A stretch of DNA of 64,000 nucleotides from Salipiger mucosus DSM 16094 (GTDB lineage Bacteria > Pseudomonadota > Alphaproteobacteria > Rhodobacterales > Rhodobacteraceae), in NCBI RefSeq assembly GCF_000442255.1, contig NZ_KE557273.1, forward strand, positions 490,662 to 554,661, read 5' to 3'. The translations under genes were made by a program, and so were the position numbers. The notes beneath the pieces were generated by a model. The model was not told the origin of the DNA. It worked only from the letters and a program-made list of their open reading frames with translations, and ran no database searches. Shown in pieces: positions 12,493 to 18,589 of this stretch. Numbering within the stretch: position 1 is the stretch's first letter; each line of letters starts with the position of its first letter.

Positions 12493-12907
12493 GGAAGACT
12501 CGTCCCATCTTGCTGCGATTTCTCCGCCGGTATAAGCCCGTGCGACCGCCGAGGTTAAACGAAATATCGCGCAGATTGACGATTTGAGCGGATTTTCCGA
12601 CATACGTGATCACACGCCGGAAGCGTGTGATCACAAACTTCGGCGCTGCCCGAAAACCGGGCGCGCTAACATGGAATCCGTGCGATTCGTGTGTCGGCGT
12701 CGCTGTGCGGCGGGGGGTGTGCCGGTGCGGGACGGGCGCGGCGGCCCTTGCCGGGGGCGGGGACGAGGCGGCCGATGCAGCCCGTTCCCTGTCGCGCGGA
12801 AGGTCGCCGCAGGGCGGCCGCGTCGCGCGCAGTCGGCGCCGGGGCAGCCGGCGCCGTGCGTGGTCGGCCGGCCCCGGCGCATCCGCGCGGGGGCCGGCCT
12901 CGGGATA
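12493..12907. promoter_or_regulatory. 415-bp non-coding region upstream of sucC
   Basis: The stretch between the mdh stop and the sucC start. The sucC-proximal part holds the GTGATCAC pair (12606-12634) and relatively AT-rich sequence (TTTCGTTTAACC on the minus strand). The mdh-proximal 250 bp are very GC-rich with several inverted repeats. I find no credible gene in it. It is the expected promoter region of the sucC-led operon. Confidence 0.6.
12606..12634. promoter_or_regulatory. Paired GTGATCAC operator upstream of sucC
   Basis: A perfect inverted repeat with 12-bp arms (GTGATCACACGC and GCGTGTGATCAC) and a five-base centre. Each arm holds the 8-bp palindrome GTGATCAC, and the two palindrome centres are 21 bp apart, i.e. 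two helical turns, as expected for two dimers bound side by side. The nearest edge is 114 bp upstream of the sucC ATG. The same design occurs upstream of sdhC (18441-18468). No regulator is encoded next to it, so the binding protein is unknown. Confidence 0.7.
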
Positions 12908-13870
12908 TCAGGCGAGGGTTTCGTCGATGCCCTTGCAGGCCTCGACCAGGCCCTTCACGGCGCTGACCGAGTTGTCGAACATCGCCTGCTCGTCCTTGGT
13001 CATCTTGATGTCGACGATGCGCTCGATGCCCTTGTCGCCGATCACCGTCGGCACGCCGACGTAGAAGCCGTCCAGGCCGAACTCGCCGTCGCAGAAGGCG
13101 GCGCAGGGCAGCACGCGCTTCTGGTCCTTGAGATAGGCCTCGGCCATCTCGATGGCGCTGGTGGCGGGCGCGTAGAAGGCCGAGCCGGTCTTCAGCAGGC
13201 CGACGATCTCGGCGCCGCCGTCACGGGTGCGCTGCACGATGGCGTCCAGCTTCTCCTGCGTGGTCCAGCCCATCTTGACGAGGTCGGGCAGCGGGATGCC
13301 GGCGACGGTCGAGTAGCGGGTCAGCGGCACCATGGTGTCGCCGTGGCCGCCCAGCACGAAGGCGGTGACGTCCTTCATCGAGACGTCGAACTCGAGGCTC
13401 AGGAAGTGGCGGAAGCGCGCGCTGTCCAGCACGCCGGCCATGCCGCAGACCTTCTGCGGGGGCAGGCCCGAAAACTTCTGCAGCGCCCAGACCATGGCGT
13501 CGAGCGGGTTGGTGATGCAGATGACGAAGGCGTCGGGTGCGTTGGCGGCGATGCCTTCGCCGACGGCCTTCATGACCTTGAGGTTGATGCCCAGCAGGTC
13601 GTCGCGGCTCATGCCCGGCTTGCGCGGCACGCCGGCGGTCACGATGCAGACATCCGCGCCGGCGATGTCGGCGTAGTCCTGCGTGCCCTTCAGCTTGGCG
13701 TCGAATCCTTCAGCGGGGCCCGACTCGGCGATGTCGAGCGCCTTGCCCTCGGGCGTGCCCTCGGAGATGTCGAAGAGGACGACGTCGCCCAGTTCCTTGA
13801 GCGCCGCGAGGTGGGCAAGCGTGCCGCCGATCTGTCCCGCGCCGATCAGGGCGATCTTGGGTCTGGCCAT
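12908..13870 (-). CDS. mdh: Malate dehydrogenase (NAD)
   Basis: LDH-like malate dehydrogenase of 320 aa. The NAD-binding GAGQIGG is at residues 10-16, the substrate-specificity loop has the VPRKPGMSR arginines (about 81-89), and the catalytic histidine is H176 in LGGHGDTMV. It oxidises malate to oxaloacetate in the TCA cycle, and also takes the malate made from malyl-CoA by the ethylmalonyl-CoA pathway. The start at 13868-13870 begins [10 protein letters not shown], the family N-terminus. It is divergent from the TSUP gene and separated from sucC by 415 bp, so it may have its own promoter. Confidence 0.96.
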
Positions 13871-14025
13871 GGATCTGTTCTCCGCTCCATATGTAAATCC
13901 GCTGTTTGGGTAAGGGTTTGGCTTGCGGCGCGCAAGAGCGCTGCAGAGCGGCATGACCCCGGGTGCGGGCTGGCCCCGCCCGGATGTTGGCGCTAAAGCG
14001 CGAAAAACCGGGAGGTTAGGAGCGA

Positions 14026-14781
14026 ATGGAGCTGTTTAGCTGGCAGGTGTTTTGCGTGGCGGTCCCGGCGGTGATCTTCGCTGGGGTGTCGAAGGCGGGC
14101 TTCGGATCGGGCGCGGCCTTTGCCAGCGCGACGATTCTCGCGCTGGTGCTCGAGCCCGGCGCGGCGCTGGGCGTCATGTTGCCGCTGCTGATGCTGATCG
14201 ACGCGGGCAGCCTGCCGGCCTACTGGCGGCGCTGGGCCTGGCCCGAGGCACGCGTCCTGCTGCTGGGCAGCCTGCCCGGCACGCTGCTCGGCGCATGGTT
14301 CTACGCCGGCGCGGACCCCGACGCGATCCGCCTGCTGATCGGCGCCATCTCGGTCGGCTTCGTGACCTGGCAACTGGCGCAGAAGGTCGGGCTCGCCGGC
14401 CTCACCGCCCGTCGCTTCGGCACGGTCGCGGGCGGGCTCGCGGGCGCCGGGCTGGGCTTCACCAGCTTCATCAGCCACGCCGGCGGGCCCGTGGCGGCGG
14501 TCTTCCTGCTGGGCCGCGGGCTCGACAAGACCCGCTACCAGGCGACCACCGTGCTCGTCTTCTGGGCGGTCAACCTGCTCAAGGCCGGGCTCTACGGCGC
14601 CATGGGCGTCTTCACCCTGCAGACCTTCGCCTTCGACCTCGCGCTCGCGCCCTTCGCGTTGCTGGGCACATGGCTCGGCGTCCGGGCACACCGCGCGGTG
14701 CCCGAGCGCGCCTTCTTCGCGCTCACCTACGTCCTGCTGGCGGTGACCGGCGGCAAGCTCATCCTCGACGCCGTGACCTGA
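14026..14781 (+). CDS. TauE/SafE (TSUP) family permease
   Basis: Integral membrane protein of 251 aa with about eight hydrophobic segments and the two-repeat organisation of the TSUP family; the GXGXG-rich [15 protein letters not shown] near the start and its partner [16 protein letters not shown] near residue 145 are the two repeat signatures. TSUP members export sulfite, sulfoacetate or similar small organosulfur anions, but no neighbour here points to a sulfur pathway, so the substrate is open. A RBS-like GGAGG lies 9 bases before the ATG. It is divergent from mdh. Confidence 0.85.
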
Positions 14782-18062: not shown

Positions 18063-18161
18063 GCGGCGCGCCTGCCGTCACGTTTACGTCGCGAAACGGC
18101 GCGGTCTCGGCTAGTCTTCCGACGGGGAGAGGATTCGCAGTGCAAGTCTCGGAGGCAGACG

Positions 18162-18365
18162 ATGGTACAGATGCGACTTCCCGCGGAACCCGCCGAGGTT
18201 CTCGACATTCCCGAAAGCGACATTCCCGAGGTTGTGGGCGCACTCGTCGCCGAAAAGCGGCTCAGCACGCTGATGTCGGCGATCCACGCAAACCTCTGGT
18301 CCGACGATCCCGCCCTGCGGCAGCAGGGCACGGCGGCGCTCCGGCGGCTCGGCTTCCCCGATTGA
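18162..18365 (+). CDS. Small hypothetical protein (67 aa)
   Basis: Short acidic protein with no signal peptide or membrane helix. GGAGG lies 7 bases before the ATG, a good ribosome site, and base composition follows the coding pattern, so I accept it as a gene. The C-terminal helix contains LSTLMSAIHANLWSDDPALRQQG. It lies alone between mch and sdhC, 99 bp after mch. I do not recognise a family. Confidence 0.55.
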   Translation: MVQMRLPAEPAEVLDIPESDIPEVVGALVAEKRLSTLMSAIHANLWSDDPALRQQGTAALRRLGFPD

Positions 18366-18589
18366 GTCGCCCCCCGGTGCGTGCCTCCGCGCGCCCCGCA
18401 TCACATGTTACCGCGAACGCCGCGCGCGGCCCCGAGTTTTGTGATCACACATTTCCGCGTGTGATCACGATTTCCGCGCAAATTGCCGCAATGCCCCGAA
18501 AAATCGCCCCGCATGGGGCATCGGTCTCGTGACACGGGTGGCGTAAAGCCGCTAGAACCCCGTGCAAGAGGGAACCGAAAGGACACGCC
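18366..18589. promoter_or_regulatory. Promoter region of the sdh operon
   Basis: A 224-bp non-coding stretch. It holds the GTGATCAC pair (18441-18468), and just upstream a TGTTACCGCGAACG-type sequence (18405-18418) that resembles a degenerate LacI-family half-site pair. Downstream of the pair lies a relatively AT-rich stretch, then GGGGCATCGG-type inverted sequence, and AACCGAAAGGACACGCC is the sdhC ribosome site. No gene is seen in it. Confidence 0.55.
18441..18468. promoter_or_regulatory. Paired GTGATCAC operator upstream of sdhC
   Basis: GTGATCACAC and GTGTGATCAC form an inverted repeat with 10-bp arms and an eight-base centre. The two GTGATCAC palindromes are 20 bp centre to centre, and the near edge is 122 bp before the sdhC ATG. 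This matches the element upstream of sucC in core sequence, spacing and distance to the gene, so both TCA operons probably answer to one regulator. Confidence 0.7.

Follow-up and report, generated by a model that had tools for sequence, protein, structure and literature searches.

Paired palindromes before the sucC and sdhC operons of Salipiger mucosus as predicted operators of the GntR regulator AkgR

AkgR of Rhodobacter sphaeroides is said, in the abstract of a 2015 mBio paper by Imam, Noguera and Donohue, to be the protein RSP_0981 and to activate tricarboxylic acid (TCA) cycle genes directly; the targets of McbR, a regulator of Escherichia coli, differ from those of AkgR. In the available portion of PMC4344238, the GntR regulator RSP_0981 is predicted to control sucCD (RSP_0967-6), sdh (RSP_0974-6) and the genes for 2-oxoglutarate dehydrogenase (RSP_0965-62), and the available portion of PMC6365646 gives GTGATCAC as the AkgR motif of R. 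sphaeroides and terms AkgR an activator. The latter text also proposes GTGATCAC as the operator of PS417_07240 from Pseudomonas simiae, a protein 32% identical to AkgR. There, however, a single palindrome is described, spanning -47 to -40 relative to the start codon, and the cluster concerned is a catabolic one for deoxyribose/deoxyribonate, not the TCA cycle. A stretch of 64,000 nucleotides of Salipiger mucosus DSM 16094 (contig NZ_KE557273.1, positions 490,662 to 554,661; hereafter the window) was analyzed, in which two GTGATCAC palindromes stand before sucC and two before sdhC. These pairs precede the sucCD/2-oxoglutarate dehydrogenase operon and the sdh operon, which are the RSP_0981 targets predicted in PMC4344238, and the regulator is most likely AkgR. 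A GntR regulator, the motif and the targets are common to this locus and the R. sphaeroides regulon, whereas the organism differs and the candidate akgR lies about 296 kb from its targets. By sequence, McbR (PDB 4p9f) is the best solved relative of this candidate (E 1.7e-19, residues 18-214) and has the same GntR and FCD build, but it is distant. The paired sites are as follows.

12606 to 12634, minus strand: predicted paired operator of sucC, two GTGATCAC (12606-12613 and 12627-12634) with centres 21 bp apart, kept at orthologous promoters.
18441 to 18468, plus strand: predicted paired operator of sdhC, two GTGATCAC (18441-18448 and 18461-18468) with centres 20 bp apart, kept at orthologous promoters.

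The whole window contains four copies of GTGATCAC (starts 12606, 12627, 18441 and 18461), all within these two pairs, and the positions and centre distances of the original prediction were recovered. Between the sucC pair and the ATG at 12492 (minus strand) there are 113 intervening bases, and between the sdhC pair and the ATG at 18590 (plus strand) there are 121, which are the sites that had been placed 114-122 bp before the first start codon. Each pair as a whole is an inverted repeat too, with perfect arms of 12 bp at sucC (GTGATCACACGC / GCGTGTGATCAC) and 10 bp at sdhC (GTGATCACAC / GTGTGATCAC), in agreement with the 10-12 bp reported earlier. The words TGTGA and TCACA are common to these sites and to Crp sites (TGTGA-N6-TCACA). 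The sites here, however, are paired, and their half sites adjoin in four of four window copies with no 6-bp gap, so that the Crp layout is absent and the difference in spacing noted before stands.

In shuffled versions of the window, single GTGATCAC occurred 1.03 times on average and at least four times in 2 of 100 shuffles, and a pair in none of the 100; since the shuffles reach four singles but never a pair, the pairing is clearly beyond chance and the number of single sites is not. When a third-order Markov model is fitted to the window and spacers of 10-16 are allowed, the expected number of pairs is about 0.0006 for the window and 0.06 for the genome, against about 215 single GTGATCAC in the genome, where the single site is therefore common. 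A third GTGATCAC pair with spacers of 10-16 was found neither in the window, as had been stated, nor anywhere in the 5.69-Mb genome (30 contigs, 97.5% complete), and a third pair with 10-bp arms and at most three mismatches at the two observed spacings was likewise absent from the whole genome. The hope that many further TCA or acetate genes would carry the pair was thus disappointed in this genome, only sucC and sdhC being found.

Upstream regions of 80 sucC loci from other genomes (L003-L082) were compared. In the 31 closest (L003-L033, 80-87% identity, titles mostly Rhodobacteraceae or Rhodobacterales), the exact pair stands directly before sucC except in L018, L022 and L024; the remaining 49 (L034-L082), including L047, a metagenome-assembled genome titled Rhodobacteraceae, have no GTGATCAC pair anywhere. 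Promoter sets were then composed of the window, the close loci and nine family loci (L206-L214) picked because they bear the pair, with centre spacings of 16 to 28 admitted in the search. The exact pair was present upstream of sucC in 38 of 41 promoters (29 of 32 without the nine picked loci) and upstream of sdhC in 28 of 30 (20 of 22). At sucC, L018 and L022 carry the pair with one mismatch and L024 has none; at sdhC, L019 has a lone site, and in L021 the partner of the one exact site has two mismatches. All 66 exact pairs are spaced by 20 or 21 bp only (sucC, 36 at 21 bp and 2 at 20; sdhC, 24 at 21 and 4 at 20). Around the pairs, TTT is preferred before and AAA after on the outer side, and AC and GT on the inner side. 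As separate observations, the sucC-like gene of L024 (Roseovarius sp. 217) has a GTG start and, unlike its 30 list neighbours, lacks any vestige of the pair, and is perhaps a second copy, and GGGACA is frequent just before the sucC start in relatives (19/38; window 12493-12510), perhaps as part of the ribosome-binding site.

In a survey of 198 family genomes from 197 genera, the exact pair was found in 175, and the pattern read backward, used as a control, in none of the 198. In a class-wide survey of 385 genomes, the pair occurred in five of five family members and in 8 of 380 others, and the backward pattern in one of 385. Chance palindromes, or an RNA hairpin in place of an operator, would be favoured by the commonness of single GTGATCAC and by the ability of the whole pair to fold if transcribed. 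Chance is refuted by the recurrence of the exact pair before orthologous genes across many genera together with the empty backward control, and the hairpin was set aside because aligned promoters agree only in the two 8-mers and in a few bases beside them; the probability left to this explanation is next to nil. The pair is conserved at orthologous promoters and rare elsewhere, so that the original prediction is not refuted by its own signs of chance, which were lack of such conservation or frequent occurrence in coding sequence.

Variant arrays were also found. In two genomes (G135 and G191; L258 and L259, 1501-1550), three GTGATCAC stand in tandem, 21 bp apart, and in G042 (L189 1501-1529) a third exact pair with 21-bp spacing precedes a class II fumarase gene (fumC) by about 124 bases, so one more step of the TCA cycle can be included in the array. 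Four extra pairs of other spacing were inspected in relatives, and further ones occur in G044, G047, G069, G159 and G189. Of the four, the one at L246 1501-1531 (G159) has centres 23 bp apart and lies outside any long open frame; those in L188, L248 and L249 were rejected as likely chance matches in coding sequence, being within open frames of 489, 929 and 574 codons; as the 21-bp pairs in L189, L244 and L259 also lie inside long open frames, open frames alone cannot tell chance pairs from true operators.

The regulator was sought among GntR proteins. Of the 46 GntR-domain matches in the genome, none falls within the window, and ten open reading frames (ORFs) picked between 23103 and 34465 as possible regulators were rejected because they have no GntR domain. 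In 9 of the 31 closest loci, sucC is followed some 8-10 kb downstream by a GntR gene. A first candidate (L108) was discarded, as it showed only 30-35% identity to GntR genes near suc over most of the length; the right gene (L122) emerged from the reverse search. Ten query pieces from the suc-linked genes all chose one and the same own-genome protein (10/10, 69-76% identity), and the next-best paralogue had 47% identity or less.

G000:C1:206274-206921: candidate akgR orthologue, encoding 216 aa and situated about 296 kb away from the sucC pair.

The candidate has an N-terminal GntR domain (PF00392, 46.7 bits) and a C-terminal FCD domain (PF07729, 62.1 bits), both above cut-off, and the model of the L023 orthologue is helical with moderate confidence (pLDDT 77.6; five models, 55.8-77.6). 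In G051, an orthologue (79%) lies directly past sdhB in the order sucA-sucD-sucC-mdh-sdhC-sdhD-sdhA-sdhB-GntR; the gene was named AkgR because this order equals the one implied by the RSP_ numbers. The own-genome GntR/FCD gene is thus most likely the AkgR orthologue, and the protein that had been left nameless is most likely AkgR. That a single regulator serves both the sucC and the sdhC operons, as first suggested, is supported by these comparative data, with binding predicted from sequence.

Presence of the orthologue and of the pair was then compared across the family, with a best E below 1e-70 as the threshold for an orthologue, placed in the gap between 5e-60 and about 4e-82. Both were present in 171 of the 198 genomes and both absent in 19, with the pair only in four and the orthologue only in four, so that the two agree in 190/198 (Fisher p 5e-19, indicative only because of shared descent). 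At class level (E at most 1e-45), the orthologue was found in five of five family members and none of 380 others. The sucC promoters were sought in all 27 genomes lacking the orthologue, the exact pair or both. Among the 23 without the exact pair, 17 yielded sucC at 70% identity or more with readable upstream DNA, which was not obtained in G021, G122, G147, G155, G166 and G172. G040, which has the orthologue, carries the pair at the usual place with one mismatch; in the 16 readable promoters without the orthologue, the best match has three mismatches in G017, four in G157 and five to seven in the other 14, that is, no clear remnant. In the four pair-only genomes, the exact pair stands at sucC in every case (L215, L219, L231 and L235). 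Three of them are 74-91% complete and the fourth, G114, has a listed completeness of 100% in 320 contigs; a missed akgR and a lost one are therefore inseparable there.

Binding of the pairs by another regulator, either a GntR paralogue or a Crp/Fnr-type protein, would be compatible with the 46 GntR-domain matches and with TGTGATCACA, which resembles Crp half-sites. It is nevertheless the orthologue, not its paralogues (at most 47% identity), that tracks the pair across genomes and has a site before its own gene. The accessible part of PMC4344238 predicts RSP_1663/CceR and NtrC at sdh in R. sphaeroides, which also speaks for another regulator; the same part predicts no CRP analogue in that organism and gives a different motif for RSP_1663. 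Another regulator therefore appears very improbable.

A single GTGATCAC precedes the akgR orthologue of the own genome. Among the best 30 orthologue loci from the 198 genomes, the own genome included, an exact GTGATCAC lies no more than 150 bases before the aligned akgR start in 30 of 30; it stands shortly before a start codon in 29 of the 30 printed sequences, the site of L164 being beyond the printed stretch. Of the suc-linked akgR loci, L005, L013, L021, L023 and L032 have the exact site at the gene, and the sequence of L022 ends before it.

The genes behind the pairs were identified with NCBIfam profiles (sucC, sucA, sdhC, sdhA and sdhB) or named by position and relatives (sucD and sdhD).

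11299 to 12492, minus strand: sucC, succinyl-CoA ligase beta subunit, first gene behind the pair (NF001913, above cut-off).
10264 to 11151, minus strand: sucD, next after sucC (by position and relatives).
7103 to 10075, minus strand: sucA, 2-oxoglutarate dehydrogenase E1 (NF006914, above cut-off).
18590 to 18985, plus strand: sdhC, first gene behind the pair (TIGR02970, above cut-off).
18999 to 19370, plus strand: sdhD (by position and relatives).
19392 to 21197, plus strand: sdhA (TIGR01816, above cut-off).
22317 to 23096, plus strand: sdhB (NF004616, above cut-off).
18529 to 18558, plus strand: candidate sdhC promoter, -35-like GTGACA (18529-18534), an 18-bp gap and -10-like TAGAAC (18553-18558); plausible.
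12530 to 12559, minus strand: weak candidate sucC promoter, TTTAAC (12559-12554) and TTATAC (12535-12530), with a weaker kept element about 45 bp past the pair.

Elsewhere in the window there are ORFs with an autoinducer synthase (LuxI-type) domain (32753-33487, plus strand; PF00765, E 1.6e-20) and a DUF1989 domain (25827-26879, plus strand), and a methylmalonyl-CoA mutase-like ORF with a B12-binding domain (28066-30030, minus strand).

Behind the sdhC pair, GTGAC was found in 26 of 28 promoters (2000 shuffles: mean 3.4, maximum 11). When the set was enlarged to 42 distinct sdhC promoters, each with the exact pair, and the GTGAC nearest the start was taken, it was present in 38, in 31 of them at 57-60 bp past the pair; the seven outlying distances are 47, 48, 69, 70, 78, 80 and 86 bp, and in six of these seven the shift away from the main distance amounts to a near whole number of turns (V-test, 10.5 bp, p 0.0085). 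From this phase-kept distance, the sdhC pair seems to be held on one face of the DNA relative to the promoter, as expected for an activator touching polymerase; the signal is modest and the sequences share descent.

It is very probable, in our judgement, that AkgR activates the sucC and sdhC operons through the pairs and limits akgR through the single site, where binding, sign, stoichiometry and cooperativity are what we infer. Each GTGATCAC palindrome would be the site for one AkgR dimer, made up of a winged helix-turn-helix GntR domain and an FCD ligand domain, and two dimers would lie side by side, two helical turns apart and hence on the same DNA face, upstream of the sucC and sdhC promoters. 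So placed, they would help RNA polymerase start there, presumably by contact, and succinyl-CoA ligase, 2-oxoglutarate dehydrogenase and succinate dehydrogenase would rise together. At the single site before akgR, AkgR would limit its own synthesis by self-repression. Its ligand may be a TCA metabolite, which is a guess.

AkgR might instead bind with one working site in each pair, the second being weak or spare, or act as a repressor here. The single GTGATCAC before akgR itself fits such an arrangement, as does the single palindrome proposed as operator of the related P. simiae regulator in the available part of PMC6365646; yet both 8-mers are kept at a fixed two-turn spacing over many genera, three-site arrays exist, and the same source terms AkgR an activator, so that this arrangement is considered unlikely.

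Several points weigh against activation by AkgR through the pairs. The orthologue threshold was picked after the list had been seen, and the genomes share descent. The pair occurs with no orthologue found in G019, G033, G096 and G114, and the orthologue with no exact pair in G040, G147, G155 and G166, some of the discordant genomes being incomplete. The element behind the sucC pair is weak: 15 of 38 promoters have CGTTT at 44-46 bp. No exact GTGATCAC was found near the linked akgR of L015 and L019, and L029 has GCGATCAC there instead. The candidate akgR lies at a distance from the window, and its putative identity with AkgR is drawn from synteny, motif and targets.

A broader proposal is put forward tentatively, as one that falls somewhat nearer to doubt than to belief: a rigid, phase-locked AkgR array of two and sometimes three sites, spaced by exactly two turns at sucC and sdhC and kept in phase with the sdh promoter, may set the 2-oxoglutarate-to-fumarate stretch of the TCA cycle across Rhodobacteraceae. 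By a simple rule of counting sites, the array would mean activation and the single site before akgR self-limitation, and the family-wide switch would be gained or lost together with the regulator.

The link between regulator and targets is already known from R. sphaeroides, and the strict paired layout is the added detail. The two-site layout, its phase, the self-site and the joint loss were not found in the literature searched, to which the 2015 AkgR paper did not belong, and no claim is made that they are unpublished. In the accessible part of PMC11323563, succinate dehydrogenase and 2-oxoglutarate dehydrogenase of Paracoccus denitrificans are placed outside CceR control and other control is suggested. 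As the Paracoccus locus L018 carries an exact pair before sdhC and, before sucC, a pair with one mismatch, AkgR is a candidate for this control. A motif that had no name attached is now the predicted target of a known regulator, with a promoter layout open to testing, and in a large family of ecological importance one GntR protein and its putative operators are jointly present or absent. For any member with a sequenced genome, the paired site could mark control of the TCA cycle by AkgR, and its absence could mark the loss of that control.
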